From Gibbula magus (lineage: Eukaryota; Mollusca; Gastropoda; Trochida; Trochidae), in contig OW388297.1 of the NCBI GenBank assembly GCA_936450465.1, positions 27,236,387 to 27,300,386 on the forward strand: a stretch of 64,000 nt of DNA, given 5' to 3'. The position numbers and the translations under genes are program-made. Positions 1,236-61,500 of the stretch are shown here, one piece after another. The notes beneath the pieces are model-generated. The model had not been told where the DNA came from and made no database searches. It saw only the letters and a program-made list of their open reading frames with translations. Positions within the stretch are counted from its first letter, which is position 1. Every line of letters begins with the position of its first letter.

Positions 1236-18199
<16,964 letters not shown>

Positions 18200-21641: not shown

Positions 21642-24421
21642 AGCGAAACTCTGGAGACGCTTGAGGTCGTAAGCGTCGCTTATTATTGGTAATAAGTTTG
21701 TCGGCAAGTAGCTTTTAGTCATTACGCTGTTCCTTTTCACTCCCTGTTTAAATATTCATAGGTTATATCATTATTGATCTCTCTTCGAGTCATTTAAACT
21801 CATTCAAATGGATTTATGTATTTGTGACCAATGACTTGAAACGCTTCCGCATGGTTCGCTTTATCATTGTTAGAGAACTATTCAAAGCGTGCCATTTGCA
21901 AGCGTTCAGAAATGCTTGCAAAAAAAATGTGTTTAAATGTAAATGTATAATTTTGCTTTTGTAAACTTTTGTAAAAGCAATTAACAGGAGGCGGAATATA
22001 GTTGAAATTCAGGTTAAAATACAAACTGTGTACATTCAACTATTTTAGGTATCTTATAAGATTTAATCATTTAAATGTAGGGTAGTTAACGCAATCTAAA
22101 TAAATTTAAATCAACTGAGAATTTAGCTTATAATAAATACTAATTACTAAATACTAAATACTGCGACAGTAGGGCTACAACTAAAACTCCATTGATCTAA
22201 ATGTAAATTTATGTGGATTGGTTTAGACGAAAATGTAAATTCCTAGTTTATAGCTTCTGGCATAAACTTTCAATTCCAAAAAATAGTCAATTTATAGTAT
22301 TTGAATACATGTATATAAATATACAATCTAAATAAATTTAGATCGTCTGTCCTATATACCTGTACATACCTATACCTGTTGATCTAAATTTATTTAGATT
22401 GATAAATATATATCCTTACTTTATATCACTGGTGCCAATATATAGACAAAAGTCCATACATGCAAAAGTTATGAAGAATACAGAAATAAATGCAGTAAAA
22501 TCATATTTAACAGTATGTGCGTAAACTCATGTAATAACGAATACATGCATGGTTATTCGGAACGGTTTGATTTAAGACACAATTCCAGTAGATCTATTAC
22601 AAGTGTAGCATTCTCTCACCTTAATTATCGTCAATCATTAAGGACTTATACACAGTACTGAACAGTATCATATATATATAGAGATTGTGTGATTCAATGT
22701 TTCATAATAGTATATGACAGTTGTTTCATTAGTTTTAGTAAGAAAAGCTCTCCATTCAAACAGTCAAAATTCTTGTACGATTAGTCAGAAGTTCCCTCTA
22801 TCTACCACTAGGTGGGCATTACCATACAAGAAAACATCAGTCGGAAAATATAAGTCGCTAGAAATATATAAGTAGCATCATAAGTACAAGTACAATGGAA
22901 ATTCTAGGACATGAAATACCTATGTTAATGTAGACTACATATACGTAAAGCGCTGAGTCTACTCGCAGACTGGGTACTTCTCTGGGCGAGCTTGCTCTCC
23001 AGTTCTCGCCACTATATACTGGCGGCACAACAGCGAAACTCTGGAGACGCTTGAGGTCGTAAGCGTCGCTTATTATTGGTAATAAGTTTGTCGGCAAGTA
23101 GCTTTTAGTCATTACGCTGTTCCTTTTCACTCCCTGTTTAAATATTCATAGGTTATATCATTATTGATCTCTCTTCGAGTCATTTAAACTCATTCAAATG
23201 GATTTATGTATTTGTGACCAATGACTTGAAACGCTTCCGCATGGTTCGCTTTATCATTGTTAGAGAACTATTCAAAGCGTGCCATTTGCAAGCGTTCAGA
23301 AATGCTTGCAAAAAAAATGTGTTTAAATGTAAATGTATAATTTTGCTTTTGTAAACTTTTGTAAAAGCAATTAACAGGAGGCGGAATATAGTTGAAATTC
23401 AGGTTAAAATACAAACTGTGTACATTCAACTATTTTAGGTATCTTATAAGATTTAATCATTTAAATGTAGGGTAGTTAACGCAATCTAAATAAATTTAAA
23501 TCAACTGAGAATTTAGCTTATAATAAATACTAATTACTAAATACTAAATACTGCGACAGTAGGGCTACAACTAAAACTCCATTGATCTAAATGTAAATTT
23601 ATGTGGATTGGTTTAGACGAAAATGTAAATTCCTAGTTTATAGCTTCTGGCATAAACTTTCAATTCCAAAAAATAGTCAATTTATAGTATTTGAATACAT
23701 GTATATAAATATACAATCTAAATAAATTTAGATCGTCTGTCCTATATACCTGTACATACCTATACCTGTTGATCTAAATTTATTTAGATTGATAAATATA
23801 TATCCTTACTTTATATCACTGGTGCCAATATATAGACAAAAGTCCATACATGCAAAAGTTATGAAGAATACAGAAATAAATGCAGTAAAATCATATTTAA
23901 CAGTATGTGCGTAAACTCATGTAATAACGAATACATGCATGGTTATTCGGAACGGTTTGATTTAAGACACAATTCCAGTAGATCTATTACAAGTGCAGCA
24001 TTCTCTCACCTTAATTATCGTCAATCATTAAGGACTTATACACAGTACTGAACAGTATCATATATATATAGAGATTGTGTGATTCAATGTTTCATAATAG
24101 TATATGACAGTTGTTTCATTAGTTTTAGTAAGAAAAGCTCTCCATTCAAACAGTCAAAATTCTTGTACGATTAGTCAGAAGTTCCCTCTATCTACCACTA
24201 GGTGGGCATTACCATACAAGAAAACATCAGTCGGAAAATATAAGTCGCTAGAAATATATAAGTAGCATCATAAGTACAAGTACAATGGAAATTCTAGGAC
24301 ATGAAATACCTATGTTAATGTAGACTACATATACGTAAAGCGCTGAGTCTACTCGCAGACTGGGTACTTCTCTGGGCGAGCTTGCTCTCCAGTTCTCGCC
24401 ACTATATACTGGCGGCACAAC
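21642..24421. repeat. 1390-bp tandem duplication
   Basis: Copies 21642-23031 and 23032-24421 appear identical apart from one T/C difference seen (22606 versus 23996). The unit starts AGCGAAACTCTGGAGACGC and ends TACTGGCGGCACAAC. It carries several palindromes of the type TCTAAATAAATTTAGA. The second copy ends 3 bp before the left end of the large transposon. It is non-coding. Confidence 0.9.
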
Positions 24422-24424
24422 TGC

Positions 24425-24440
24425 AGAGAGGGTTCTATCG
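24425..24440 (+). repeat. Left terminal inverted repeat of the transposon
   Basis: AGAGAGGGTTCTATCG, matching the right terminus exactly in inverted orientation. The sequence directly outside is ACTGC rather than TTAA. Confidence 0.8.
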
Positions 24441-24974
24441 GGGTATTTTTTGTGGAAACGAAATTCAGGTGGGAATTCCCTTTTGCACACGGCACACAAG
24501 TGTGTGTTTTTTTATAAACGCTTTTATTTTACTTTTTACTACTTTATATTGATATTTCAGGAGATAATTAAACTTAATCCGAATGTAAAAACAAAAAAAT
24601 AACCAAACAAAAACGAAGCCACTGATTGGCGCTGCAAGCGCCAAGGGGATTAACTCCATTGTTGTGATGGCGGCGACTGACTCGAGCGATCAAATTGACG
24701 AGATGCTTTTACATGTATGAACAATTATGTGATTATAGTGAGTTATTTTCACAAGGAATTAAGAAGTTTTGACACTAATGCCTCTAAGATAATGACGCTA
24801 ACTCAATATGACACTGAGGAAGAAACTGGCTTCAATCAGGGTTTCGATTATAACCTGTTGTTCGCTCTCCCCATCATCCTCACGTTCACAGATCGCCAAG
24901 TAGTGTTCAAGACATATATTTTGCTATCAACTTCAAGTGGGATTACCTAGATATGATTCAATAAGAAAATAAGA

Positions 24975-25174
24975 ATGAGTAAGGTTGGGCGAGGCCGACC
25001 TCGAAAACACGAGGATATTTCGCCCGTGAGTAGAAGACGGGAGAGAAATGCTCAGCGAGTCTATTTGGGAGATCTTTCAAACAGATGGATTGAGCTGAAA
25101 ACAGCACTGGTATTGACGGATAATCAACTTGCAAGACACCTTCTAGATAACCATGATGTGACCTGTCAATGCAA
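24975..25174 (+). CDS. Transposase exon 1 (AT-hook)
   Basis: Begins MSKVGRGRPRKHEDIS, an AT-hook core (GRP) in a basic run, and ends at HDVTCQC with donor CAA/GTAAGT, two bases into a codon. Confidence 0.75.
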
Positions 25175-28100
25175 GTAAGTATGAAAATAATTTATCAACG
25201 TTGAAATGTTTGTGATATCTACTACATGTCATATAACAATTCATACTTTTCAGTCTTCTGTCTGTATGACTGCAGTACAGTAGACATATATTCATAGTGC
25301 ATACATACATAATTTTTAATTTTTGGGCCTGACATAAATTATCAGAACAATGAACCTAAAATTCTTGCCTAAAATTTGTAAACAATATTCAGTCCTGAAG
25401 TAATTCATGTCCAAATTAATCAATTATTTTTTCATTGATGTATTTATTTTTATTTTTATTTTTGCAGTTCTACCCCAGTACCTTGTGATCCATGGGACAG
25501 AAGCTCACAACAAGAAAGTCTTCAGCTGCCATCAGTTAGCACACCCCAGAAAAACAAAGATCTAGATGTTGTATCATGTGTTGCAGGTGAGCATACACTC
25601 TTTACATTGTATCTCAGTAACCTGGTATACTTCGCTCTAAGTTGAGTCTTGTCATGTTTATGTAATTTATTTCATACATTTCACAATAAGTATAATTGAA
25701 GTGTGACGATCAGAAACTTTGGAGGTTATATTATTCATAATGAATTGACAAGCAGTGTATCGATATCGTGATACTGAATGTGACAATATATACATCATGA
25801 TTTATTTTGTGTATTGTGATAAGATAACTATTGTTGACTATTGTTTATCAAGAAAATATGTAGGTGATAGATAGATAATGTGATGTGTATCATATTGTGA
25901 AACTTGATAACCCCAGATTGGGTATCAAGATTATCAACATGATCCCGCCGAAGTGTTTATAATTTGTGGTTGTATTCATTCAGCTTTGCTAAGAACCATG
26001 GATTTTTTTTTCATGTCATTTCTCTATTTTCAGACTTGTCATTGATATCCTCATTGATGAGCTCTCCTACCAGTGACGAAAACAATGAAACTGCTGATCA
26101 ACCTTGCAATGAGTATGTATATTAATGTATTCAATATCAAATAATATTTTGAATTTCAAGATTGCATATATTTTGTTATGTAAGACCGTTTACATGAATC
26201 ATAGCTGATATTTGGCATATTTGTTGAATAACACGAGTTCGAATCATGTCAGGGGCACAGTAACTTTTTATGCAGTAGAGAACTGTAAGGTTTTTTATGC
26301 AATGTTACATTGTTGCAGCAAGGTTTGGGTGCAATGCTACACTGAACTTCAGTGCAGTATACCATCCATGGTTCACTAGTCCCAACCGGTACACGCAGGT
26401 TTCACGGCAATGCATAACCACACAACATAACAGGCTTTCTTCCTGCCATAATACGGGCAGCCATGATATAAGTAAAATTCAATGTTAAAACTCACCTGCA
26501 TAACCTAATACTGTTTATGTCCATTTTCTCATTGAAATTTCTTTATCACAGACAATGCAGAGAATCAACGCAGACAGTTGCTGAGTTTACAAACCCGGGT
26601 CCAGATGTTTTGGATAAGACTGCTGACATAACCAGGTATGTATTTATTTGAACACATTATCATTTACAATTGTCTTATTAACTGGTATCATAGATAAATA
26701 TGTATGCTCTTTGCTGTGTTTCACAACAAAGTATTATATCATTATTGTTTTTTACGGGTTGACCCAAGTGTTTACCCCCCTTACAGCTACTAAGACTATG
26801 ATGATGAGTTAAATGTATTAGAAATGATAACTTTGTGTAAGCAGGCATATAGTTCATGATTTTCTCTGTGTTACAGTGCCACACTAGGAGAGAGCATCGA
26901 CTCCATCAACAGCGACGATGAATTCCTGAACATGTCACTGCCGGACAGAGATGAAGATGCAATGCCCGGTTTAGACAATAGTACCAAATTCATGGACAAT
27001 ATTTCGACACAAAAGTGTATTGCTTTTGTTGATCCGCTTGTAGAACTTGTTAAGAATTGTATTGGACATACTTGTGAAAACTGTAAAACCAATTTGGTTT
27101 TTTCATACACAATGAGAGCTACTGCTCTTATGGTCACTTGGAAGTGTCAAAGAGGGCATTCAGGCAGCTGGTCTTCTCAACCCAAAATCGGTTCCATGTT
27201 TGCTGGTAATCTACAGCTGGCCGCTGACATCCTACTCACTGGCAACAGCTACGCAAAAGTTGCAATGCTTTTCTCTTACATGAATTTGGGCTGCGTCAGC
27301 AAGTCCTATTTCTACAATGTACAAAGATTCTATGCTCTTCCTGCAATTGAATCTTACTGGGCATCGATGCAATTGGACATTCTCAGTAAGCTGAGAAAAA
27401 GTGAATCACCGATCATACTGGCTGGAGACGGACGTAACGATTCACCAGGACACAATGCGCAGTATTGTACTTACACCATGATGGATGTGGATACCAGACA
27501 GATTGTCGGTCTAGAAATAGTCGACCTTCGGGAAGCCCCAAACAGCGTCGCAATGGAGAAAATTGGCTTCATACGTTGTATGGACTACATCACCAACATC
27601 ATCTCTGTTACAGAAGTTGTCACTGACCAAAGTTCATCAATTGCCCTGACAATGCGTAAGTGTACAGACATTCATTGGAATGCCAAATTTATATTTTTTT
27701 ACAAAATGTCATGGAAAAGTAAGCAATGTATACATAGTGTATAAAATCCCCCCAATTGTTTTTATCAACATGGGTAACTAAGTAATGTAATGTAATGTAT
27801 TAAATGTAATGTAATTCAGATATATTATTTATGATTTGCTTTTTTTTGCAGGAACAAAGTTTCAAAACATCAAACATCAGTGGGACGTGTGGCACGCTGC
27901 TAAGAACTTGGAGAAGAAACTGACAATGGTGAGATATTTTGAGAGTTGTTAAACTAAACTATCTAAATTTGATCATATGTACAGCTTCATACAGCAATTT
28001 TGTACTTCTAATAATTTTCATGCTGCAGTATGAATAAATTTCAGTCCAATAACATTTATCACTCTCTATTTGACAACTTCCAAACACAAGGCATAACTCT

Positions 28101-29899
28101 TGCCAGTCTGCATTAGTGGTTGATTTAAGTCTTGCAGTATTTCCCTCGCTTCGTTGTGCCTAGATAGTGAAGCTCTGCACCAGAAATGCATAGTGGGTCT
28201 AGATTTCTAAGGAAATACTGCAAGGCCTAAATCAGCCAGCAATGGAGACTGGCAAGAGTTATGCCTTTATTTGATGTCTCCTGACACATTTGTGTTATGT
28301 TGTATTTATAGTAAATGTTTTGTTTCAGCTCGGAAATACCAAGAAGACGGCTATTATACGGACTTGGGCTCCTTCTATCCGGAACCACTTCTGGTACTGC
28401 TCTAAGATTTGTGAAGGCAATGAGGATTTATTGAAGGTAACTATTTGTGTCTGGTATTCCACATACATGTTATATGTTCAAATTGAGTAGACAGATGAGT
28501 AAATTATAAGATGGCACACTCATATATATGATATAATTATTGAATAACTGATGTCTACTATAACTTATCTAAGTAAACATATTCTACTCCTGATTTTTTT
28601 CAAACAGGAAACATGGATGAGGATCCTGCAACACGTGTGTAACAAACACGAGTGGGCCGTCAGTGAGCACACACCTGGCAAGTGCGCACATGCACCTCTC
28701 AATGCCAACGACGACAAAAAGCCTTGGTTTGACACCAACAGCGAGGCCATGGACATCCTCCGAGGTGTTGTGATGGACCGCAGACTGATGGGGACCATGA
28801 CCCACTTCACCAACTTTCGGTAAAAATGATTTCCTTCAGTTTCAGAAATATAATTTAATTTCCTTATATTTATTCAATCAAAATTTGTCTGTATTGTTAT
28901 CATAATTAAAGACACTTTTTCTTAAAAGTAGAAAATTAATTAAAAAATATTATAGCCAAAGAAAGGTTACTTGCTTCTATGAACTTTTTTTTATAAGGGA
29001 CTCTATTTTGTTTTTAGGCACACTGGTATCCTGGAGACGTTCCACAACCACCTGCTGATGTACTGTTCCAAGAGACAGTCCTACCAGTAAGTGAAAAGTC
29101 TATTATGAAACAAAACCGCTACCAGATAAACTCAGCATAATTCTTAATGTTATGTCATATACCTGTATAATTTAATCATTTGAATAAATTTTGTTCATTG
29201 ATAAAATCGATATGGTCTTAACATACTATCAACAGTATGTCTGCTTTATGTGGTTAAAAATGGATGGATTCATCACTATCGCAAGTTTTCATAATAATAA
29301 TTCTTTCTTACACAACAGGTTTCCTGGCTACCGCTCACGCAATCTATTGGCTGCAATAGACTACAATCACCATGTGAACAGACCTGAGCTCTTGAACCAA
29401 AATGGAGAGACAAGGTAAATAGAAATGTGAATGTGAATAAATGTGGGATTGTATGGTTGAGGATTGTCAGCGAAATTCCATATTCAATCGTTGGAATAAC
29501 ACATAGTAATGAAACTGGTATCATAGCATTAGTCTGTCTTGGCATTTAATCAGGAAGGTGATGTTACAAAGACTTCATTGTATACCTAAAGATTCTCATC
29601 TTTTGAAATGTGCCTAACCTACAAGCAATAATTTTTTTTGCTATTTTTTCAGTCAGACTCCAAAATACAACAAGAGGTCAAAGACTTGGAGTGTTGCACC
29701 AGTGAAGATCAACAAGGGCTATGCATACAAGTATGACCTGCAGTGCCTGATCTTCGAAGAAAAGGCAAAGGATCTTCTTCCAACGAACAGGAGTTGCCAA
29801 CGAAGGGAAGATGACCCTAGACGAATTGCCCCGTCAATTGCCAAAGTTGCCTGTCCTCCGAAAGATGAACTTGTTCAAAAGCAAATATCGAGATTCTAG
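24975..29899 (+). CDS. Kolobok-like transposase, 11 exons, 689 aa
   Basis: Exons 24975-25174, 25468-25586, 26034-26112, 26552-26635, 26877-27655, 27852-27928, 28329-28436, 28608-28819, 29018-29086, 29319-29414 and 29653-29899 all have GT-AG borders and keep one frame to TAG. In order: an AT-hook near the start (GRGRPRK), an acidic Ser-rich linker, a zinc-finger pattern (Cys227, Cys230, Cys251, His255), and the catalytic region with DGRNDSPGH (Asp345/Asp349), VVTDQSS (Asp411), HQWDVWHAAKN, and HTGILETFHNHL, whose Glu559 is the likely third acidic residue. The role would be DNA cutting and joining of the transposon ends. The family name is inferred from TTAA and motif wording. No stop or frameshift was found in any exon. 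A possible extra 5' exon (ATG at 24667 to 24714, 16 codons, donor CAT/GTATGA) could extend the N-terminus. The ATG at 24975 was chosen because it needs no weak acceptor. Confidence 0.82.
25468..25586 (+). CDS. Transposase exon 2 (linker)
   Basis: Acceptor after a T-rich tract ending tttttgcag; donor GCAG/GTGAGC. Polar linker with WDRSSQQESLQLPS. In phase on both sides. Confidence 0.7.
26034..26112 (+). CDS. Transposase exon 3 (linker)
   Basis: Acceptor tctctattttcag, donor AATGA/GTATGT. Ser/acidic-rich linker ending near ADQPCNE. The phase fits both neighbours. Confidence 0.65.
26225..26480 (+). repeat. SINE copy inside a transposase intron
   Basis: Contains a B-box-like GAGTTCGAATC, then GGTTTGGGTGCAATGCTACA, GGTTTCACGGCAATGCATA and GCCATGATATAAGT, the same order as the better-preserved copy at 56383-56642. 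Confidence 0.6.
26552..26635 (+). CDS. Transposase exon 4 (linker)
   Basis: Acceptor tctttatcacag, donor ACCAG/GTATG. It encodes a QCREST-like start followed by a polar stretch ending in DKTADIT. In phase. Confidence 0.65.
26877..27655 (+). CDS. Transposase exon 5 (zinc finger and first catalytic Asp)
   Basis: The largest exon. It carries CENC...KCQRGH zinc ligands, IILAGDGRNDSPGHNAQYCT with the first catalytic Asp, and EVVTDQSSS with the second, and ends with donor ATGC/GTAAGT. The reading continues without a stop for 259 codons. Confidence 0.88.
27852..27928 (+). CDS. Transposase exon 6
   Basis: Acceptor ttttttttgcag, donor ACAATG/GTGAGA. Encodes HQWDVWHAAKNLEKKL, a highly typical segment that follows the second catalytic Asp in this transposase group. 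Confidence 0.85.
28088..28267. mobile_element. Short MITE inside a transposase intron
   Basis: Arms of about 55 bp: AAGGCATAACTCTTGCCAGT at the left and its reverse complement at the right, continuing through TTGATTTA / TAAATCA and CTTGCAGTATTT / AAATACTGCAAG. The spacer is about 70 bp. It does not disturb exons. Confidence 0.7.
28329..28436 (+). CDS. Transposase exon 7
   Basis: 36 codons, phase 0 at both ends (acceptor gttttgtttcag, donor TTGAAG/GTAACT). Encodes RTWAPSIRNHFWYCSKICEG, a tryptophan/cysteine-rich helical segment. Confidence 0.82.
28608..28819 (+). CDS. Transposase exon 8
   Basis: Acceptor ttttcaaacag, donor TTTCG/GTAAAA. Includes VCNKHEWAV, KCAHAPL and KKPWFDTNSEAMDILRGVV, with His/Cys residues that may bind zinc. 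Confidence 0.85.
29018..29086 (+). CDS. Transposase exon 9 (likely third catalytic residue)
   Basis: Acceptor ttgtttttag, donor TACCA/GTAAGT. Encodes HTGILETFHNHLLMYCSKRQ; the Glu of LETFHN is the candidate third acidic residue. Confidence 0.83.
29319..29414 (+). CDS. Transposase exon 10
   Basis: Acceptor tacacaacag, donor ACAAG/GTAAAT. Encodes FPGYRSRNLLAAIDYNHHVN, a conserved stretch near the C-terminus. Confidence 0.82.
29653..29899 (+). CDS. Transposase exon 11 and stop
   Basis: Acceptor ctattttttcag. Encodes SQTPKYNKRSKTWSVAPVKI and a basic C-terminus ending KQISRF, then TAG. Confidence 0.8.
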
Positions 29900-30688
29900 A
29901 TGTACATGTTAACCATGAAAGAATGAATAACCTAGTTGTCAACTTGTCAATTGAACAAACTAGAATGAGGTCACTGTCAAGAGTAAAATGTTTTTATTAC
30001 AATTTTTCACATGTACACTTACATGCTTACATGTCACTCACTGTGTATATGGCATTTGACAATTTCATGTGAACCCTTTAAAAGTTATCGGATTATATAT
30101 ACACAGACTGGTGTCTTCTCATTCAGAAATGAATATGAATATATTTTTTGATTTACAAGAAATTATTGTCAATGGTATCTAGAGACATAACTGTCCAAGG
30201 ACTTGCATGCATTTTCCCCATGTGTGAGCAGACATTACTTAAACATTGAACTAAATCCATGATGTCTGTGATGAATTATCATTACAAGTTGTTTTTTTTT
30301 TGTTTATTTCTTCCCAAAGGTTACAAAGTTCAGAAAACAATTGCAATGTGTATACAATATATAATAGATATATTGACTAGGAGCTTTTTGGATCTATATA
30401 TGTACATCAATTTACCTTGAGCTGAAAGGTGTCTGTCTAAAAACAGAAACGTTAATAGTTGAATATTGGAATTAGTGCTTTCCACTTTTTATCAAATTTG
30501 TTCATTTCATTGTTTCTTTTGAAAATGTATTTCTCAACAAAATAGATTTCTTTAAGGTAATTACTGTGAATCTTGGTTTTGAATTTTTTCTATTACATAA
30601 GTTGATATATTTCTGGGCAGAAATAATAATTTATCAAAACATTGTTGTATAATGTGACAAACCAAAACAAACTATTTTCAGATTGTAA

Positions 30689-31161
30689 TTATTTTGGTAA
30701 ATAATTATTTATCCAAAGTTCATTCCAGGAAGTTGTGGTTATACTGCATTCCCAATATACATGACAAATGCTCCCAGAAGCATCATTGCAAAAACTACAT
30801 AGATCATTGTCAACAAGATTCATTCTCAACAATTCTCTTTTTGTATAAATAACTCTTTGTAGAAATCTATATTGAAAATCAATAAGTTTAACATCCTTCA
30901 AATCCTGTCTATATGAGTTAAATATATCTTTCCAGTCAAATTCACAGTCAATAAAATCATTTCCCATTTTTTGTTTATGGAAATCAACTTATCATAAAAG
31001 ATTCTAGATCCTGTTTTGATTTCAAAATATTTCTTGTAAATACTTGTGTATAATAGGTAGGAATAATTCTTGTACATTTTATAAAAGATTTCCAAAAGTG
31101 GGGGAATATTAAGTAGATAATTACATGTTGATGAAGTATGTATAACATGGATTTGGGACAC
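30689..31161 (-). pseudogene. LINE reverse-transcriptase C-terminal fragment
   Basis: The minus-strand reading FQYRFLQRVIYTKRELLRMN, then LCSFCNDASGSICHVYWECS, matches the zinc-knuckle-like segment that ends many non-LTR retrotransposon polymerases. The preceding part (about 30970-31161, SRIFYDKLISINKKWE) is in another frame. The shift lies at an A-run near 30970, so it is broken. Only this 3' part of the element is present, placed between the two transposon genes. Confidence 0.65.
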
Positions 31162-31381
31162 ACATCAATTATCATGTGGTAGTAGCAAATTTACAAAATA
31201 CAGTACGTTTTAATACAAGTGATTTGATGTTGTATACATTGATAGATTGGTGTATTCTTGTTGCTCATTATATTACAAAGAAAGTGATGCTATGGAATAT
31301 TTCGAAATGTTTATACATCATTATGGCACTTGGCACAAATAAACTGTATCAATCATCCATTGTTTTCTTTCATTTCCAAAA

Positions 31382-31870
31382 TCACAAGCGACCAGGACGA
31401 AATCCTGTGTAGTTTCCATTGTCAGCTGGGTATTGTTGTCTAATTTTAAGAACAGTACACGATGGAACAACTTTCCTCTCTCCTGAACGAAGAACTCCAT
31501 ATCTCATCAAGATAAACTGTCTGTACGCTGTGTGACGAAACATCCTGTTGTTCCTCTGGTGATCATAGGCATACAAGTCATTCCTATAGGCCCCTGCTGC
31601 ATCCAGTACGTCTTCGTCCATCACTACGCGCTGAAACTTTCCTGTGGCTGTCACACACTGTCCTCTCTTTTTAATGCAGCATCTATTCTCGATGTTGGTC
31701 GGCATTGGTCTGCAATTGCCACAATGACACCATCGAGGCAACACGTCTTCAGGGGGTGGGTTTGGAGGCTCTGAGGACGTCATTACTGTCTGGTAGGTTT
31801 CCTTGTCCTGCCATATCAGCTTTGTGAGTAGGCTACGTCTGCTGGTCTCATCCAAGTTATCTAAGAAATT
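31382..31870 (-). CDS. P2X7 intracellular-domain exon
   Basis: Acceptor ctccatttcag, TGA at 31382-31384. All Cys and His landmarks of the domain are present, including WCHCGNC, the CC pair, RHTAYR and the LPSC-like PSC. The domain sits in a single exon, as reported for its occurrence in other animal genes. Confidence 0.88.
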   Translation of the reverse strand, partial: NFLDNLDETSRRSLLTKLIWQDKETYQTVMTSSEPPNPPPEDVLPRWCHCGNCRPMPTNIENRCCIKKRGQCVTATGKFQRVVMDEDVLDAAGAYRNDLYAYDHQRNNRMFRHTAYRQFILMRYGVLRSGERKVVPSCTVLKIRQQYPADNGNYTGFRPGRL

Positions 31871-33683
31871 CTGAAATGGAGATGTTTAATATAAGAATAG
31901 TAATAGCCTTAGTATAAATACTTGTTTTTTTTGTTTTAAAATACAAAAAGATTGAAATCAATGATTACTGTTATATTGGTATCAAATATGTAGATATGAC
32001 AATAACATTGGAGTGATCTGCACCATTTAAACCCTCTTTTACATAATGGAGTTGAATTTATTAATCTTCATGAACAAAAACTTTTAATTACCTTTATTTT
32101 CAATAATCCTTCAGTTGATGGTTCTTCATTAGTATTTGGTATGGGCGTTGCAGATTGAGATGTGCCAGTGGTTGTGGTAGATGTAGAAGTAGATGTGGAC
32201 GTAGCAGATGTACGAGTGGCAGACTTGGATGTGGATCTGGCAGATGCTCCTCTACATTTCGGTCTGGCAGATGCAGGCTTGCATTTCAGTCTGGTGGATG
32301 AAGGCTTAGGCATGGAAGGATGTGTCGATCTGTCGGATCGGGCTTTGGGTGTTTCGGTTGACAGAACTGGGGATGCTACAGGTTGTTGGCGAATTGGAAT
32401 CTTTGACAGTCTACCATTGGTCATCTGCTTACGAACCTTGGTTGGAATTTCTGGTACCTCCACATGATGAATCCTCTGGAAATAAGCATTGTCTTTATTA
32501 TATAAGTAAATCACAAATAGTGGTTGCTCAGAATTTTACAGGACTGGTGACTTGTAGTATTTCTCTGTAATTTCTCAAAGCAGACAGGCAGGGAAATAGA
32601 GAATCTCACCAAAGTGCCTTAAATTATGACAATTATTATTATATATTGATTATTATTATCAGCACAAGTTGATCAAGCTTATTTTCATCAACTCCTGTTC
32701 AGATAATTGATTTCAGAAGTCATGATGGTGTCATTCCTCATTGTACATCAATGAAAAGGTGATATTACTTGCCAGTGTAGGATACTGCATATTTATACAG
32801 AAATATTAAAGTAGTGTAAAAGCGCCACATTATGACGTCGCTTTCCCTCGTTTTATACAAAATCGTTAACTCGTTTAATAAAAAATGGAATTAGATAGAA
32901 AGTCATTTAGTATCCTATATATATCACACAAGCTTCACTGACGGCATATAGAACCTGGCATATTTGCTTATTTGTAGCATTACCAGATAATAGAGTAAAT
33001 ATTATATATGTTGTATTTTGTACCAACCTTTCTGTCAGTATAGTTGCCCTCATGTGGTTTCATGAACTGAAAGTAATAATTAAATAAGCATCAAAATCAC
33101 ACAACACAAAGTCAAGATGAATGAGGCATTATTGCTTGAACTTTTAAAAAAAATAATTAACTGTAACCACACTCATGATGTCACGTTGTAAAGAAACTAG
33201 TAAGTAAATATTGATAATTATTTAATTTATTTAATGAAATGAAATTTGTTATCTAAACTAGACAAATGTTAATATTCCTTATTTTCATAACATAACGCTG
33301 TGATCGTTCTAGGCATGTTGATATATATACATATATTTATTTGACTTGAGAGTAAATATAAAAAAAAATATTTAAATTATTGTAGGTTATACTTATACTT
33401 AGGTTATAATGTTGAAAATCACATGAATATAAATTATAAGGTGCGTAGGTATACGGCTATACAGTACCTGTCTTTTGAAAAGGAATATAATACTTACTTC
33501 AAAGCAAATGTCTTCGTCGATCGTAGAATCAACACGGTTCGAGCATGGAAGAAGATGACCACATCTGCATAGACTGCTACAGTTTTGGTTGCGCTGCTTG
33601 CAAGGACAGGCTCCACGTTTCCCAGTCCGAGAACAGGTGTTGTTGCAGTGACAGCTCGCCATGTTCGCATTTGAGGAACACAC
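31382..33683 (-). CDS. CXC cysteine cluster fused to P2X7 intracellular domain, 365 aa
   Basis: Exons in transcript order 33683-33498, 33066-33028, 32475-32092 and 31870-31382 join in phase 0 throughout, with GT-AG borders. Residues 11-47 form a CXC-type cysteine cluster (CHCNNTCSRTGKRGACPCKQ, then CSSLCRCG), like Tesmin/TSO1 DNA-binding repeats. Residues 76-203 are a basic Ser/Thr/Pro linker with a Ser-Thr run. Residues 250-363 are the P2X7 'ballast' domain: RWCHCGNC, NRCCIKKRGQC, RHTAYRQF, VVPSCTVLKIRQQYP and GNYTGFRPGR. In vertebrate P2X7 this domain is cytosolic, binds zinc and guanine nucleotide, and follows a channel. Here there is no channel or membrane segment. It faces the transposase gene tail to tail inside the same terminal repeats, which suggests an accessory, perhaps DNA-binding, transposon protein (inference). 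Met8 is an alternative start. Confidence 0.83.
32092..32475 (-). CDS. Linker exon of the P2X7-domain gene
   Basis: 128 codons, Lys/Arg/Ser/Thr/Pro-rich, with repeated SARPKC-like and SATSTS-like words. Acceptor cttatttccag, donor ATAAAG/GTAATT. Probably disordered. Confidence 0.72.
33028..33066 (-). CDS. Small 13-codon exon of the P2X7-domain gene
   Basis: Acceptor ttactttcag, donor AGAAAG/GTTGGT. Encodes FMKPHEGNYTDRK. Accepted because both borders and the phase fit. Confidence 0.6.
33498..33683 (-). CDS. CXC exon of the P2X7-domain gene
   Basis: 62 codons with 11 Cys spaced as in CXC repeats; donor TTTGAA/GTAAGT. The first ATG in frame is at 33681-33683. On the minus strand, 150 bp upstream, is AATATGGCGTC (about 33833-33843), a YY1-like motif often found near transcription starts. 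Confidence 0.78.
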
Positions 33684-33981
33684 GCATGTTTACCTCTATT
33701 TATACCTTCAGCGTACATAACCCTGTGGAAAGGCCCAATTCCCCTTCTCCGATGACACTGACACATGACAGCGTCTGTTCATTGCCCCTCTCAGCGTCTC
33801 GCCCATACGACACTCGTAATACAGACACGATCGACGCCATATTGATTAGATTTTCCGCGTTGCATTATGGGAAGGGAGTTTTCCGCATGCTATAAATAGG
33901 TTTAGCTCTTTCATGACGCGCATACGAGCGCGGTAGCTAAAAATAACTCAATTAGCATTTTAAGCTCGCGCTGTGGAAAGG

Positions 33982-33997
33982 CGATAGAACCCTCTCT
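33982..33997 (-). repeat. Right terminal inverted repeat of the transposon
   Basis: CGATAGAACCCTCTCT, followed immediately by TTAA at 33998-34001, the expected target site for a Kolobok-type element. Confidence 0.8.
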
Positions 33998-34001
33998 TTA
34001 A

Positions 34002-37700: not shown

Positions 37701-38090
37701 GACCAAGGTGAGTCACTATATTACATAGTAGATATATAACTTGGGTTGAGGGCTCGGATAATGCTTGATAGAGTAATTTCAGAAGTAGCAGGTTCACGCT
37801 GAATTGTTACTGCAGAACAGAACATGGTAAAGTTTAGATTTAGTGTTTGAAATTCACTGAATTATGTAATTGTAAATTCAACTGACATCTTATCTTATAT
37901 TGTTAGATTTTGAAACGTTTCTCTAGATTATAACAACAATTGTTTAATAGTTCAACAATAACAGTATTCAGTTTTGACCTTATCTATAATAAGTTCATGT
38001 AATACATGTCCCGGGTACTTACTGCTGGGATCAGTATCAGACATACATCAAATGTGAACTTTTCTACATTGTTATTTTTGGATCCACAAG

Positions 38091-41000
38091 ACCTGGGAGG
38101 ACTCCATGCCGGAAGACGACCTGGGAGGACTCAATATCGGAGGAAGACCTGGGAAGACACCATGCCGGAGGAAGACCTGAGAGGACTCCATACTGGAGGA
38201 AGATCTGGAAGGACTCCATGCCGGAGGAAGACCTGGGATGACTCCATGCCGGAGGAAGACCTTTGAGGACTCCATGCCGGAGGATACCTGGGAGGATGTT
38301 GCTGGAAGAAGATCAGTGGGATACCCTGTCATGTGATGACCGAGGAAGGTATGAACCCTTTCTATTAAGAAAAACATTAATCAATGTTAATCTTTTCATA
38401 AATTCTTGAATGCTACAAAAGAAAGTCAAATGCACATATATTCTTTCTTTTTGATCTTGGAATCCAAAAGTAAGTTTAACTTTTACATTTCTTTAGTTTT
38501 CATATGCGATATATAATACTAAGCCTATTTAATTGGTAGAACTATTTTTTGCAGCATACAGCTAAACACATTCACAGCAAATGAATCTAAGCAATAAGTA
38601 CATTTTACAGAACCAGATGAAAACCGGAGGAAGACCTGGGAGGAATCCATACCGGAGGAAGACCTGGGAGGACGATGTGGGAGGATTCCATGCCGGAGGA
38701 AAACCTGGGAGATCTCCATGCCGGAGGAAGACCTGAGAGGACTCTATATCGGAGGAAGACCTGCGAGAACGACCTGGGAAGACTCCATGCCGGAGGAAGA
38801 CCTGGGAGCACTCCATGCAAGAGGAGGAAGACCTGGGAGCACTCCATGCCAGAGGAGGAAGACCTTGGAGGACACCATGCCGGAGGAAGACCTAAGAGGA
38901 CTCCATACCGGAGGATACCTGGGAGGAATCCATGCCGGAGGAAAACCTGGGAGAACTCTATGCCGGAGGAAGACCTGGGAATAGTCCATGCCGGAGGAAG
39001 ATATGGGAAGACGCCATGCCAGAGGAAGAACTGGGAGGACGTTGCTGGAAGAAGATCAGTGGGATACCCTGTCATGTGATGACCGAGGAAGGTATGAACC
39101 CTTTCTATTAAGAAAAACATTAATCAATGTTAATCTTTTCATAAATTCTTGAATGCTACAAAAGAATGTCAAATGCACATATATTCTTTCTTTTTGATCT
39201 TAGAATCCAAAAGTAAGTTAAACTTTTACATTTCTTTGGTTTTCATATGCGATATATAAACTGTATATTGCACAACTGCAGTTAATGTATTAAATCATTA
39301 ATTAGATGTGAACACTGAAATTATCATTAACTGAAATTTAAAGACGTAAGTGTTATGTTTGTATGATATGAGCTGCTGACTTCAATTTTCTTATTAGGTT
39401 GTAACTATACTTCAAAATTTATCACGAATGGTTTGATTTAGATGAAACTGTTACATTTTGTTGACAACCCTTCAGAAATTGTCATTAGTTTATCCAATTA
39501 ATGTTTGCTGATTGTAAGTTGACATTATTAGATTAAATTTCTATTACAGATCTTATCGAAAGTTTAAAAATTTCAGAATTAAATTATCTTTGACCGCTAG
39601 AAGACTTTATATATTATATTCAGCTAAGAGGACATGACTATATAAGCTAGGCTACCTATAGTACATGTGCTTTACATGAAATAATACTAAGCCTATTTAA
39701 TTGCTAGAACTATTTTTGCAGCATACAGCTAACCACATTCACAGGAAATGAATCTAAGCAATAAGTACATTTTACAGGACCAGATTAAGACCGGAGGAAG
39801 ACCTGGGAGGACTCCATATCGGAGGAAGACCTGCGAGGACGACCTGGGAGGATTCCATGCCGGAGGAAGACTCCATGCCGGAGGAAGACTCCATACCGGA
39901 GGAAGACCTGGGAGCACTCCATGCCAGAGGAGGAAGACCTGGGAGCACTCCATGCCAGAGGAGGAAGACCTATGAGGACTCCATGCCGGAGGAAGAACTG
40001 GGAGGACGTTGCTGGAAGAAGATCAGTTGGATACCCTGTCATGTGATGACCGAGGAAGGCATGAACCCTTTCTATTAAGAAAAACATTAATCTATGTTAA
40101 TCTTTTCATAAATTCTTGAATGCTACAAAAGAATGTCAAATGCACATATATTCTTTCTTTTTTATCTTAGAATCCAAAAGTAAGTTAAACTTTTACATTT
40201 CTTTGGTTTTCATATGCGATATATAAACTGTATATTGCACAACTGCAGTTAATGTATTAAATCATTAATTAGATGTGAACACTGAAATTATCATTAACTG
40301 AAATTTAAAGACGTAAGTGTTATGTTTGTATGATATGAGCTGCTGACTTCAATTTTCTTATTAGGTTGTGACTACTTCAAAATTTATCACGAATGGTTTG
40401 ATTTAGATTAAACTGTTACATTTTGTTGACAACCCTTCAGAAATTGTCATTAGTTTATCCAATTAATGTTTGCTGATTGTAAGTTGACATTATTAGATTA
40501 AATTTCTATTACAGATCTTATCGAAAGTTTAAAAATTTCAGAATTAAATTATCTTTGACCGCTAGAAGACTTTATATATTATATTCAGCTAAGAGGACAT
40601 GACTAAGCTAGGCTACCTATAGTACATGTGCTTTACATGAAATAATACTAAGCCTATTTAATTGCTAGAACTATTTTTGCAGCATACAGCTAACCACATT
40701 CACAGGAAATGAATCTAAGCAATAAGTACATTTTACAGGACCAGATGAAGACCGGAGGAAGACCTGGGAGGACTCCATATAGGAGGAAGACCTGGGAGGA
40801 CGACCTGGGAGGATTCCATGCCGGAGGAAGACTCCATGCCGGAGGAAGACTCCATGCCGGAGGAAGACTCCATGCCGGAGGAAGACTCCATGCCGGAGGA
40901 AGACCTGGGAGCACTCCATGCCAGAGGAGGAAGACCTGGGAGCACTCCATGCCAGAGGAGGAAGACCTTTGAGGACACCATGGCGGAGGAAGACCTAAGA

Positions 41001-44000
41001 GGACTCCATACCGGAGGTAGGCCTGGGAGGAATGCATGCTGGAGGAAAACCTGGGAGGACTCCATGCCGGCGGAAGACCTGGGAGTACTCCATGCCGAAG
41101 GAAGACCCGGGAAGACAACATGCCGGAGGAAGAACTGGGAGGACGTTGCTGGAAGAAGATCAGTTGGATACCCTGTCATGTGATGACCGAGGAAGGTATG
41201 AACCCTTTCTATTAAGAAAAACATTAATCAATGTTAATCTTTTCATAAATTCTTGAATGCTACAAAAGAATGTCAAATGCACATATATTCTTTCTTTTTG
41301 ATCTTAGAATCCAAAAGTAAGTTAAACTTTTACATTTCTTTGGTTTTCATATGCGATATATAAACTGTATATTGCACAACTGCAGTTAATGTATTAAATC
41401 ATTAATTAGATGTGAACACTGAAATTATCATTAACTGAAATTTAAAGACGTAAGTGTTATGTTTGTATGATATGAGCTGCTGACTTCAATTTTCTTATTA
41501 GGTTGTAACTATACTTCAAAATTTATCACGAATGGTTTGATTTAGATGAAACTGTTACATTTTGTTGACGACCCTTCAGAAATTGTCATTAGTTTATCCA
41601 ATTAATGTTTGCTGATTGTAAGTTGACATTATTAGATTAAATTTCTATTACAGATCTTATCGAAAGTTTAAAAATTTCAGAATTAAATTATCTTTGACCG
41701 CTAGAAGACTTTATATATTATATTCAGCTAAGAGGACATGACTATATAAGCTAGGCTACCTATAGTACATGTGCTTTACATGAAATAATACTAAGCCTAT
41801 TTAATTGCTAGAACTATTTTTGCAGCATACAGCTAACCACATTCACAGGAAATGAATCTAAGCAATAAGTACATTTTACAGGACCAGATGAAGACCGGAG
41901 GAAGACCTGGGAGGACTCCATATAGGAGGAAGACCTGGGAGGACGACCTGGGAGGATTCCATGCCGGAGGAAGACTCCATGCCGGAGGAAGACTCCATGC
42001 CGGAGGAAGACTCCATGCCGGAGGAAGACTCCATGCCGGAGGAAGACCTGGGAGCACTCCATGCCAGAGGAGGAAGACCTGGGAGCACTCCATGCCAGAG
42101 GAGGAAGACCTTTGAGGACACCATGGCGGAGGAAGACCTAAGAGGACTCCATACCGGAGGTAGGCCTGGGAGGAATGCATGCTGGAGGAAAACCTGGGAG
42201 GACTCCATGCCGGCGGAAGACCTGGGAGTACTCCATGCCGAAGGAAGACCCGGGAAGACAACATGCCGGAGGAAGAACTGGGAGGACGTTGCTGGAAGAT
42301 CAGTTGGATACCCTGTCATGTGATGACCGAGGAAGGTATGAACCCTTTCTATTAAGAAAAACATTAATCAATGTTAATCTTTTCATAAATTCTTGAATGC
42401 TACAAAAGAATGTCAAATGCACATATATTCTTTCTTTTTGATCTTAGAATCCAAAAGTAAGTTAAACTTTTACATTTCTTTGGTTTTCATATGCGATATA
42501 TAAACTGTATATTGCACAACTGCAGTTAATGTATTAAATCATTAATTAGATGTGAACACTGAAATTATCATTAACTGAAATTTAAAGACGTAAGTGTTAT
42601 GTTTGTATGATATGAGCTGCTGACTTCAATTTTCTTATTAGGTTGTAACTATACTTCAAAATTTATCACGAATGGTTTGATTTAGATGAAACTGTTACAT
42701 TTTGTTGACGACCCTTCAGAAATTGTCATTAGTTTATCCAATTAATGTTTGCTGATTGTAAGTTGACATTATTAGATTAAATTTCTATTACAGATCTTAT
42801 CGAAAGTTTAAAAATTTCAGAATTAAATTATCTTTGACCGCTAGAAGACTTTATATATTATATTCAGCTAAGAGGACATGACTATATAAGCTAGGCTACC
42901 TATAGTACATGTGCTTTACATGAAATAATACTAAGCCTATTTAATTGCTAGAACTATTTTTGCAGCATACAGCTAACCACATTCACAGGAAATGAATCTA
43001 AGCAATAAGTACATTTTACAGGACCAGATGAAGACCGGAGGAAGACCTGGGAGGACTCCATATCGGAGGAAGACCTGCGAGGACGACCTGGGAGGATTCC
43101 ATGCCGGAGGAAGACTCCATGCCGGAGGAAGACTCCATACCGGAGGAAGACCTGGGAGCACTCCATGCCAGAGGAGGAAGACCTGGGAGCACTCCATGCC
43201 AGAGGAGGAAGACCTTTGAGGACACCATGCCGGAGGAAGACCTAAGAGGACTCCATACCGGAGGTAGACCTGGGAGGAGTGCATGCCGGAGGAAAACCTG
43301 GGAGGACTCCATGCCGAAGGAAGACCTGGGAAGACAACATGCCGGAGGAAGACCTGAGAGGACTCCATGTCGGAGGAAGAACTGGGAGGACGTTGCTGGA
43401 AGAAGATCAGTGGGATACCCTGTCATGTGATGACCGAGGAAGGTATGAACCCTTTCTATTAAGAAAAACATTAATCAATGTTAATCATTTCATAAATTCT
43501 TGAATGCTACAAAAGAATGTCAAATGCACATATATTCTTTCTTTTTGATCTTAGAATCCAAAAGTAAGTTAAACTTTTACATTTCTTTGGTTTTCATATG
43601 CGATATATAAACTGTATATTGCACAACTGCAGTTAATGTATTAAATCATTAATTAGATGTGAACACTGAAATTATCATTAACTGAAATTTAAAGACGTAA
43701 GTGTTATGTTTGTATGATATGAGCTGCTGACTTCAATTTTCTTATTAGGTTGTGACTACTTCAAAATTTATCACGAATGGTTTGATTTAGATTAAACTGT
43801 TACATTTTGTTGACAACCCTTCAGAAATTGTCATTAGTTTATCCAATTAATGTTTGCTGATTGTAAGTTGACATTATTAGATTAAATTTCTATTACAGAT
43901 CTTATCGAAAGTTTAAAAATTTCAGAATTAAATTATCTTTGACCGCTAGAAGACTTTATATATTATATTCAGCTAAGAGGACATGACTATATAAGCTAGG

Positions 44001-47000
44001 CTACCTATAGTACATGTGCTTTACATGAAATAATACTAAGCCTATTTAATTGCTAGAACTATTTTTGCAGCATACAGCTAACCACATTCACAGGAAATGA
44101 ATCTAAGCAATAAGTACATTTTACAGGACAAGATGAAGACCGGAGGAAGACCTGGGAGGACTCCATATCGGAGGAAGACCTGCGAGGACGACCTGGGAGG
44201 ATTCCATGCCGGAGGAAGACTCCATGCCGGAGGAAGACTCCATGCCGGAGGAAGACCTGGGAGCACTCCATGCCAGAGGAGGAAGACCTTTGAGGACACC
44301 ATGCCGGAGGAAGACCTAAGAGGACTCCATACCGGAGGTAGACCTGGGAGGAGTGCATGCCGGAGGAAAACCTGGGAGGACTCCATGTCGGAGGAAGACC
44401 TGGGAAGACAACATGCCGGAGGAAGACCTGAGAGGACTCCATGTCGGAGGAAGAACTGGGAGGACGTTGCTGGAAGAAGATCAGTGGGATACCCTGTCAT
44501 GTGATGACCGAGGAAGGTATGAACCCTTTCTATTAAGAAAAACATTAATCAATGTTAATCATTTCATAAATTCTTGAATGCTACAAAAGAATGTCAAATG
44601 CACATATATTCTTTCTTTTTGATCTTAGAATCCAAAAGTAAGTTAAACTTTTACATTTCTTTGGTTTTCATATGCGATATATAAACTGTATATTGCACAA
44701 CTGCAGTTAATGTATTAAATCATTAATTAGATGTGAACACTGAAATTATTATTAACTGAAATTTAAAGACGTAAGTGTTATGTTTGTATGATATGAGCTG
44801 CTGACTTCAATTTTCTTATTAGGTTGTGACTACTTCAAAATTTATCACGAATGGTTTGATTTAGATTAAACTGTTACATTTTGTTGACAACCCTTCAGAA
44901 ATTGTCATTAGTTTATCCAATTAATGTTTGCTGATTGTAAGTTGACATTATTAGATTAAATTTCTATTACAGATCTTATCGAAAGTTTAAAAATTTCAGA
45001 ATTAAATTATCTTTGACCGCTAGAAGACTTTATATATTATATTCAGCTAAGAGGACATGACTAAGCTAGGCTACCTATAGTACATGTGCTTTACATGAAA
45101 TAATACTAAGCCTATTTAATTGCTAGAACTATTTTTGCAGCATACAGCTAACCACATTCACAGGAAATGAAACTAAGCAATAAGTACATTTTACAGGACC
45201 AGATGAAGACCGGAGGAAGACCTGGGAGGACTCCATATAGGAGGAAGACCTGCGAGGACGACCTGGGAGGATTCCATGCCGGAGGAAGACTCCATGCCGG
45301 AGGAAGACTCCATGCCGGAGGAAGACTCCATGCCGGAGGAAGACTCCATGCCGGAGGAAGACCTGGGAGCACTCCATGCCAGAGGATGAAGACCTTTGAG
45401 GACACCATGCCGGAGGAAGACCTAAGAGGACTCCATACCGGAGGTAGACCTGGGAGGAGTGCATGCTGGCGGAAGACCTGGGAGTACTCCATGCCGAAGG
45501 AAGACCTGGGAAGACAACATGCCGGAGGAAGACCTGAGAGGACTCCATGCCGGAGGAAGAACTGGGAGGACGTTGCTGGAAGAAGATCAGTGGGATACCC
45601 TGTCATGTGATGACCGAGGAAGGTATGAACCCTTTCTATTAAGAAAAACATTAATCAATGTTAATCTTTTCATAAATTCTTGAATGCTACAAAAGAATGT
45701 CAAATGCACATATATTCTTTCTTTTTGATCTTAGAATCCAAAAGTAAGTTAAACTTTTACATTTCTTTGGTTTTCATATGCGATATATAAACTGTATATT
45801 GCACAACTGCAGTTAATGTATTAAATCATTAATTAGATGTGAACACTGAAATTATCATTAACTGAAATTTAAAGACGTAAGTGTTATGTTTGTATGATAT
45901 GAGCTGCTGACTTCAATTTTCTTATTAGGTTGTGACTACTTCAAAATTTATCACGAATGGTTTGATTTAGATTAAACTGTTACATTTTGTTGACAACCCT
46001 TCAGAAATTGTCATTAGTTTATCCAATTAATGTTTGCTGATTGTAAGTTGACATTATTAGATTAAATTTCTATTACAGATCTTATCGAAAGTTTAAAAAT
46101 TTTAGAATTAAATTATCTTTGACCGCTAGAAGACTTTATATATTATATTCAGCTAAGAGGACATGACTAAGCTAGGCTACCTATAGTACATGTGCTTTAC
46201 ATGAAATAATACTAAGCCTATTTAATTGCTAGAACTATTTTTGCAGCATACAGCTAACCACATTCACAGGAAATGAAACTAAGCAATAAGTACATTTTAC
46301 AGGACCAGATGAAGACCGGAGGAAGACCTGGGAGGACTCCATATAGGAGGAAGACCTGCGAGGACGACCTGGGAGGATTCCATGCCGGAGGAAGACTCCA
46401 TGCCGGAGGAAGACTCCATACCGGAGGAAGACCTGGGAGCACTCCATGCCAGAGGATGAAGACCTTTGAGGACACCATGCCGGAGGAAGACCTAAGAGGA
46501 CTCCATACCGGAGGTAGACCTGGGAGGAGTGCATGCTGGAGGAAAACCTGGGAGGACTCCATGCCGAAGGAAGACCTGGGAAGACAACATGCCGGAGGAA
46601 GACCTGAGAGGACTCCATGTCGGAGGAAGAACTGGGAGGACGTTGCTGGAAGAAGATCAGTGGGATACCCTGTCATGTGATGACCGAGGAAGGTATGAAC
46701 CCTTTCTATTAAGAAAAACATTAATCAATGTTAATCTTTTCATAAATTCTTGAATGCTACAAAAGAATGTCAAATGCACATATATTCTTTCTTTTTGATC
46801 TTAGAATCCAAAAGTAAGTTAAACTTTTACATTTCTTTGGTTTTCATATGCGATATATAAACTGTATATTGCACAACTGCAGTTAATGTATTAAATCATT
46901 AATTAGATGTGAACACTGAAATTATCATTAACTGAAATTTAAAGACGTAAGTGTTATGTTTGTATGATATGAGCTGCTGACTTCAATTTTCTTATTAGGT

Positions 47001-59700: not shown

Positions 59701-61500
59701 TTCATTATTTAAATAACATGTTCTTCTGATGTTAATATGGTAACCCAAGTTCTTATGAAGTCATTCCAAAAAATAATCTTGACCTTAAGCCCAACTTCAC
59801 TATTTAAACATTGTTATATTTTGGATCACAATATCTGCATTAGTTCTAAATCTTTTACTTTTGGGACGATCCGTAAGGGGCGCGTCCCCAAAAAGCTAAA
59901 CAGTTTGTACTAATGCAGATGATCTGATCCCATATATAACAATATATTTAATTCATTATTTAAATAACATGTTCTTCTGATGTTAATATGGTAACCCAAG
60001 TTCTTATGAAGTCATTCCAAAAAATGATTTGACCTTTAGCCCAACTTCACTATTTAAACATTGTTATATTTTGGATCACAATATCTGCATTAGTTCTAAA
60101 TCTTTTACTTTTGGGACGATCCGTAAGGGGCGCGTCCCCAAAAAGGTAAACAGTTTGTACTAATGCAGATGATCTGATCCCATATATAACAATATATTTA
60201 ATTCATTATTTAAATAACATGTTCTTCTGATGTTGATATGGTAACCCAAGTTCTTATGAAGTCATTCCAAAAAATGATTTGACCTTTAGCCCAACTTCAC
60301 TATTTAAACATTGTTATATTTTGGATCACAATATCTGCATTAGTTCTAAATCTTTTACTTTTGGGACGATCTCTAAGGGACGCGTCCCCAAAATGGTAAA
60401 CAGTTTGTACTAATGCAGATGGTCTGATCCCATATATAACAATATCTTTAATTCATTATTTAAATAACATGTTCTTCTGATGTTAATATGGTAACCCAAG
60501 TTCTTATGAAGTCATTCCAAAAAATAATCTTGACCTTAAGCCCAACTTCACTATTTAAACATTGTTATATTTTGGATCACAATATCTGCATTAGTTCTAA
60601 ATCTTTTACTTTTGGGACGATCCGTAAGGGGCGCGTCCCCAAAAAGGTAAACAGTTTGTACTAATGCAGATGATCTGATCCCATATATAACAATATATTT
60701 AATTCATTATTTAAATAACATGTTCTTCTGATGTTGATATGGTAACCCAAGTTATTTTGAAGTCATTCCAAATTATAATCTTGACCTTAGCCCAACTTCA
60801 CTATTTTACATTGTTATATTTTGGATCACAATATCTGCATTAGTTCTAAATCTTTTACTTTTGGGACGATCCGTAAGGGGCGCGTCCCCAAAAAGGTAAA
60901 CAGTTTGTACTAATGCAGATGATCTGATCCCATATATAACAATATATTTAATTCATTATTTAGATAACGTGTTCTTCTGATGTAAATATGGTAACCCAAG
61001 TTCTTATGAAGTCATTCCAAAAAATAATATTGACCTTTAGCCAAACTTCACTATTTAACATTGTTATATTTTGGATCACAATATCTGCATTCGTTCTAAA
61101 TCTTTTACTTTTGGGACGATCTCTAAGGGACGCGTCCCCAAAATGGTAAACAGTTTGTACTAATGCAGATGGTCTGATCCCATATATAACAATATCTTTA
61201 ATTCATTATTTAAATAACATGTTCTTCTGATGTAAATATGGTAACCCAAGTTCTTATGAAGTCATTCCAAAAAATAATATTGACCTTTAGCCAAACTTCA
61301 CTATTTAACATTGTTATATTTTGGATCACAATATCTGCATTAGTTCTAAATCTTTTACTATTGGGACGATCCGTAAGGGACGCGGCCCAAAAATGGTAAA
61401 CAGTTTGTACTAATGCAGATGATCTGATCCCATATATAACAATATATTTAATTCATTATTTAAATTACATGTTCTTCTGATGTAAATATGGTAACCCAAG
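56715..61500. repeat. ~250-bp satellite, 19 copies
   Basis: Each unit has TTAACATTGTTATATTTTGG, ATCACAATATCTGCATTAGT, TTTTGGGACGATCCGTAAGG, GACGCGTCCCCAAAAAGGTA, CAGTTTGTACTAATGCAGAT, GATCTGATCCCATATATAAC and AACATGTTCTTCTGATG. TGCATTAGT and ACTAATGCA form outer arms of an ~80-bp imperfect hairpin whose inner arms are TTTTGGGACG and CGTCCCCAAAA, around GACGCGTC. Spacing is mostly 249-251 bp, with 233 and 266 as outliers. No coding frame. Confidence 0.9.

Follow-up and report, generated by a model that had tools for sequence, protein, structure and literature searches.

A 64,000-nucleotide stretch of the genome of the gastropod Gibbula magus (assembly GCA_936450465.1, contig OW388297.1, positions 27,236,387 to 27,300,386 of the forward strand; hereafter the window) carries a mobile element of 9,573 bp at positions 24425-33997. 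Between perfect 16-bp terminal inverted repeats (TIRs) it holds a Kolobok-type transposase gene and, convergent to it, a gene, KolX, that joins a CXC-like cysteine cluster to the ballast domain of P2X7. The ballast makes up a large portion of P2X7 on its cytosolic side, and P2X7 is a drug target in inflammation. With moderate confidence, we read the element as a near-intact, multi-copy Kolobok-type transposon whose KolX product would bind DNA and assist the transposase in trans as its partner. As far as our searches reach, the CXC-like cluster ahead of the ballast in KolX, its recurrence and its conservation are new.

The left TIR, AGAGAGGGTTCTATCG, occupies 24425-24440 on the plus strand and the right TIR, its perfect inverse, 33982-33997 on the minus strand, as had been claimed in an earlier interpretation made from the letters of the window (the sequence-only reading). 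Across the host genome (1.47 Gb, 140 contigs) this 16-mer is found at 387 places and its reversed control at one. A shared word of at least 16 letters was found in one of 2,000 Markov-shuffled pairs of 1-kb boxes outside the gene pair, and the TIR is the only strong match between the 420-bp element ends. The element starts with AG and ends with CT, which agrees with the 5'-RR ... YY-3' rule for Kolobok given in PMC9587614. With 100 of the 387 TIR places listed, five plus/minus TIR pairs spaced about 9.57 kb apart were taken as sister copies. All five align end to end with the window element at 99.3-99.5% identity and contain the two genes, and each is flanked left and right by TTAA, the target-site duplication of Kolobok. 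The window copy has TTAA on its right side only (33998-34001), and because CTGC stands at the equivalent position before its left TIR, the duplication is demonstrated through the sister copies. Since the five sisters share both ends, with TTAA at each side, the idea that the terminal repeats come from two unrelated elements is refuted. Two further TIR pairs, about 410 bp apart and flanked by TTAA on both sides, have only their ends in common with the element and are derivatives resembling miniature inverted-repeat transposable elements (MITEs), and TTAA adjoins the TIR in five of eight single TIR matches.

Of the six full copies, five have an intact transposase gene and four an intact KolX. 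Variable columns number 7 of 3,148 in coding sequence versus 50 of 6,455 in non-coding sequence (p 5.6e-4). The sister copies differ from one another by 0.03-0.16% and from the window copy by 0.36-0.38%, and this low divergence implies a recent spread of the family. Dozens of near-identical copies or part-copies of the transposon are present in the host genome, some of them deletion derivatives.

The transposase gene lies at 24975-29899 on the plus strand and encodes 689 amino acids in 11 exons with GT/AG borders (24975-25174, 25468-25586, 26034-26112, 26552-26635, 26877-27655, 27852-27928, 28329-28436, 28608-28819, 29018-29086, 29319-29414 and 29653-29899). Like that of KolX, this gene model is predicted from genomic sequence alone. 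Its reading frame has no internal stop, which bears out the earlier description of an uninterrupted gene. Among its motifs are GDGR, TDQ, DVWH, CNKHEW..GKCAHAP and LETFHNH, and the marks of the Kolobok superfamily, a DDE transposase with C/DxxH and an H2CH-type finger, are all present: two aspartates, the DVWH, the finger and the glutamate. Pfam recognizes a Mutator-like transposase (4.3e-12). We found 68 homologues, the closest 51% identical, and over the resulting 69 sequences D345, D411, D432 and H435 are nearly invariant. A THAP domain gives no Pfam match in the window transposase, which is thus not of the THAP-bearing frog XKol type, and the Pfam scan found THAP in one of the 69 sequences. 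In the transposase tree the window protein pairs with an abalone protein and is distant from two frog sequences, one of them with THAP. At about residues 5-63 (24981-25163, plus strand) is an AT-hook-like, basic N-terminal module, with AT_hook below the Pfam cut-off; 26 of the 69 sequences, the window transposase included, have such a module, and others are truncated in that region.

KolX occupies 31382-33662 on the minus strand, with four phase-0 exons (33662-33498, 33066-33028, 32475-32092 and 31870-31382) predicted to encode 358 amino acids. A TATA box, TATAAATAG, at 33696-33704 on the same strand (5' end, 33704) precedes the ATG by 42 bp. Exon 3 (32092-32475) encodes a Ser/Thr-rich linker that is likely disordered, and exon 4 (31382-31870) encodes the P2X7-type ballast domain. 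The evidence for the latter is a match to Pfam P2RX7_C (E 1.5e-36; 126.6 bits against a cut-off of 23.5), matches to P2X7 chains in the PDB at 5e-20, and the alignment of all seven ballast zinc cysteines. The sequence-only reading was therefore right to see a convergent gene joining a cysteine cluster to the P2X7 domain; the residues that it gave for that domain, 250-363, are corrected to 240-354 by comparison with P2X7 or to 218-354 by Pfam.

The cysteine cluster is encoded by exon 1 (33498-33662). Its nine cysteines and closing C-x-N are invariant in all seven KolX sequences compared, which represent seven families, as is the K-R-G that precedes C-P-C. The cluster fits the CXC superfamily pattern (PMC3447885) except at the Cys3-Cys4 spacer, which has 8 residues versus 4-7, so that none of the seven sequences fits the strict spacer pattern, and searches of Pfam and the PDB gave no match to this exon. 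Since one spacer deviates and neither database recognizes the exon, we call the cluster CXC-like rather than CXC; the earlier assignment to CXC keeps its nine cysteines and C-x-N and loses the published spacer and recognition by Pfam. In MSL2 the CXC domain adopts a Zn3Cys9 fold and binds DNA, as CXC domains also do in LIN54 (PMC3447885). By analogy, the KolX cluster is likely DNA-binding.

That the two genes belong to one mobile element, as first proposed, holds for all five other full-length copies examined and for 31 of 34 near-identical ballast exons. For the genome-wide comparison, 150 of 271 ballast candidates, 147 of 391 transposase candidates and 108 of 108 cysteine-exon candidates were scored. 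There are at least 148 genome matches to the ballast exon, among them 33 with identity of at least 99%, at least 149 to the transposase core exon and 85 to the cysteine exon. When all 85 cysteine-exon matches were set against the best 113 of the 148 ballast matches, 62 had a ballast exon on the same strand no more than 10 kb downstream (median distance, 1.8 kb), and in none of the 85 was the order or strand of the pair wrong. Seen from the ballast, a cysteine exon lies upstream in 61 of the 72 matches that begin at the start of the exon: 31/34 at an identity of at least 97%, 13/16 at 60-96% and 17/22 at 40-59%. Where the ballast match starts later, the figure is 8 of 41. Linkage to the transposase was scored over 87 of the 148 ballast and 99 of the 149 transposase matches. 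A convergent transposase lies within 12 kb of the ballast exon in 31/34, 9/12 and 9/20 by falling ballast identity class, some of the missing cases in the 40-59% class being due to split or unlisted transposase exons; one diverged locus, L050, counts as such a missing case yet has transposase pieces. Near the 21 matches restricted to the C-terminal part of the ballast, the transposase is convergent in 13 and upstream on the same strand in 8.

The arrangement also recurs in more distant families. Six diverged loci whose ballast is 42-80% identical to that of the window KolX were examined, and in all six the cysteine exon lies upstream of the ballast exon. A convergent transposase core is present in five; the sixth, L051, has an N-terminal transposase piece only. 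The window TIR was not found in these families, and a TTAA-anchored search for family-specific TIRs was made in five of them. L049, L050 and L051 each have their own TTAA-flanked TIR pair around the genes. The same search gave no pair in L047, where there is too little sequence, and none in L052, where a shared 13-mer, bordered by TTAA at one end and by ATAA at the opposite end, is a likely TIR pair. By the Nei-Gojobori count, over pairs that are not independent, three between-family pairs give the ballast exon a ratio of nonsynonymous to synonymous change (Ka/Ks) of 0.084-0.087, with synonymous divergence (dS) of 1.2-1.75, and six between-family pairs give the cysteine exon 0.12-0.25. Both KolX domains are under purifying selection, and this selection between transposon families supports the role in transposon biology that had been suggested.

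Shared defects among copies bear on how the two products are supplied. A KolX match that begins only at residue 16 is common to four loci on four contigs, and the corresponding 1-bp KolX frameshift was observed in two copies, L010 and L012, which have different flanks with TTAA at each. A split transposase match common to five loci on four contigs fits the 14-bp deletion seen in L013. Because such defects are shared across contigs, both products probably act in trans, and neither would be needed in cis if each defect group arose by transposition, which the scatter of the groups suggests; flanks were read for few of these loci. The mechanism that we propose has the transposase cutting at the TIRs, with their AG...CT ends, and inserting at TTAA. 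The cysteine cluster would contact DNA, perhaps the element ends or promoters, and the ballast domain would be a zinc-held scaffold contacting itself or the transposase, and KolX, supplied in trans, probably serves as the transposase's DNA-binding partner. P2X7 and nanor would then be captures of the same ballast scaffold, as has been proposed in print. We infer the contacts with DNA and with the transposase, the supply in trans and any binding of the ends.

Several observations weigh against this interpretation. The cluster departs from CXC at one spacer and is without a Pfam or PDB match, as described above. Ballast dS is near saturation, two pairs are saturated, and the closest pair, L047 and L048, gives a Ka/Ks of 0.31. 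The union of cysteine cluster and ballast is not universal: 23 of the 85 cysteine exons have no nearby ballast among the matches compared, and the distant ballast loci L053 and L054 lack the cluster within the 8-9 kb of sequence available for each. A loach relative of KolX lacks the cluster too. A transposase lies nearby in both distant loci, convergent in L053 and upstream on the same strand in L054. Going by the absence of the cluster there, the ballast is the constant part and the cysteine cluster belongs to one branch. Structure models of exon 1 and of the ballast exon are unusable (mean pLDDT, the predicted local distance difference test score, of 44 for each, the ballast model being built on three sequences). 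The spread of copies with broken KolX fits supply in trans and equally a dispensable KolX, and binding, interaction and activity are all predictions.

The main rival to a transposition partner is KolX as a regulator, which would sit on the element's promoters near its ends and set the level of transposase, or else counter host silencing. Three things suit regulation: KolX is a gene of its own, convergent to the transposase, whose TATA box sits close to the right end; LIN54 CXC domains act at promoters; and a KolX-defective group has spread. Nothing speaks directly against it, as conservation across families at 40-50% identity and the near-constant linkage to the transposase fit both readings; we regard it as possible but rather unlikely. 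Considerably less probable is that KolX is a passenger or general accessory that reads no DNA, its cysteine cluster being a structural zinc module and its ballast binding a nucleotide or a host protein. Rat P2X7 ballast binds guanosine diphosphate (GDP), KolX retains three of the five residues that PMC7016195 names for the GDP site, and no profile identifies the cysteine cluster as a DNA-binding domain; however, the other two GDP-site residues are lost, and all seven families keep the nine cysteines and the closing Asn of the CXC pattern without change. Finally, there might be no element at all, just a host gene that happens to sit between repeat ends of separate origin. The left end of the window copy could be cited for this, since it has no TTAA and borders a host tandem duplication, but chance ends and a captured host gene are ruled out by the five full-length copies found elsewhere, which share these ends, contain the two genes and are flanked by TTAA left and right, and by the 31 of 34 linked pairs.

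If KolX is indeed a DNA-binding partner, a bolder version can be put forward, though only tentatively: KolX may be the DNA-reading half of a two-part transposase, and the P2X7 ballast a fossil of a module for transpososome assembly. The zinc-cysteine reader of KolX would in that case replace the THAP missing from the transposase of this branch. Readers would differ, CXC-like here and THAP in a relative from a tick, while the ballast stayed constant as the scaffold clamping the transposase to the element ends. The unexplained zinc site of P2X7 would likewise be an inheritance from the transpososome module; the zinc and nucleotide sites of the P2X7 ballast have been called of unknown function (eLife 2023, PMC9859053). 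The family is young and multi-copy, includes intact copies of both genes and has many diverged relatives, which makes the original job of the ballast domain directly testable.

The left border of the window copy has its own history. A host tandem duplication of a 1,390-bp unit (21642-24424) ends at the left TIR, its two units, 21642-23031 and 23032-24424, differing by 2 mismatches in 1,393 (99.86% identity). A 524-bp probe from this flank has 42 genome matches, full length only for the window's two (40 of 163 candidates scored). A local rearrangement is the best reading of the absent left TTAA, and a single-end break at the TIR in a failed transposition is one possible cause. That the duplication stops at the left TIR may be fortuitous or may record an aborted transposition. 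The word TGTGGAAA occurs on the plus strand at 24451, 33724 and 33972, no more than about 275 bp from the element ends, three of its four plus-strand occurrences in the window, and may be a binding site, although it was chosen post hoc. Inside the element, a transposase intron holds a hairpin insert (28088-28267; 57-nt arms, 89% complementary) that resembles a small nested MITE, and between the two genes is a tail fragment (zf-RVT) of a long interspersed nuclear element (LINE) at 30692-30967 on the minus strand (Pfam E 4.4e-6; 27.7 bits, cut-off 27.5). Neither insert breaks a gene. Three copies (L021, L027 and L036) all lose their match to the window element at element position 6542, beside the LINE fragment, which reflects either an older arrangement or a shared deletion. 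Elsewhere in the genome, C12:18326120-18333623 holds a row of eight transposase matches that follow one another at about 1 kb, are 37-42% identical and contain stops; they look like a tandem array of a dead transposase piece.

Outside the host genome, relatives are few. A protein search with the whole of KolX returned one protein, that of the loach, and a search with the ballast region returned one ENA fragment of 196 amino acids, 69% identical. Viral contigs gave no relative of KolX or of the transposase. Among prokaryote genome contigs there was one locus, L001, with six intron-split transposase pieces (34-53% identical) at 3595-9774, while KolX matches in its 10.6 kb reach E 1.7 at best; filed as a Bathymodiolus gill symbiont, it is most likely contaminating mussel host DNA. 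The rest of the window has tandem arrays at 14175-17811 (145-bp unit, 25 copies) and 57803-61500 (250-bp unit, 15 copies), and a region at 38088-53400 with blocks repeated about 1.1 kb apart, each containing 28-bp repeats that keep long frames open on both strands. At 5814-7367 on the minus strand, a 518-codon open frame is likely a host exon and has no Pfam match at E 0.01.

Among known systems, the closest are the Kol0 Kolobok transposons, which encode a KolX with a ballast fold (Kojima and Bao 2022, PMC9587614). Like them, the window element combines a DDE transposase with a ballast-domain gene, a TTAA target and 5'-RR ends; unlike them as presented in the main text of that paper, where a CXC cluster is unmentioned, its KolX carries a CXC-like one. 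The likeness to Kol0 rests on KolX with its ballast domain rather than on tree placement of the transposase against Repbase Kol0. The same authors conclude that P2X7 arose via fusion with KolX and that nanor is likely KolX-derived, so the transposon origin of the P2X7 ballast domain is already in print. A transposon carrying a ballast gene may account for the arrival of such a domain in other genes, and the sequence-only reading's view of the element as a vehicle of domain capture fits, but is not new. KolobokP (PMC9587614) likewise has a convergent second gene downstream of its transposase; the window element lacks its long terminal direct repeats, and its second gene is KolX, with P2RX7_C, rather than a His-Me finger nuclease, which rules out that identity. 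Frog Kolobok transposases usually have THAP (PMC6004289), whereas the window transposase has no detectable one. With the CXC superfamily (MSL2, tesmin/TSO1/LIN54 and pre-SET motifs; PMC3447885), all seven KolX sequences share nine ordered cysteines and C-x-N, and they differ in the Cys3-Cys4 spacer and the missing profile match noted above. A union of CXC and ballast was not found in the open-access literature, supplements aside. Rump et al. (2020, PMC7016195) described ballast (ZCD) proteins across animals as short and without other domains, TolA-ballast and THAP-ballast proteins in tick being exceptions, and reported an 'ancestral synteny' with two markers; the words 'transpos' and 'CXC' are absent from the main text of that paper. 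The ballast (ZCD) proteins, nanor-like proteins and P2X7 all carry the same C-terminal ballast with zinc cysteines as does KolX.

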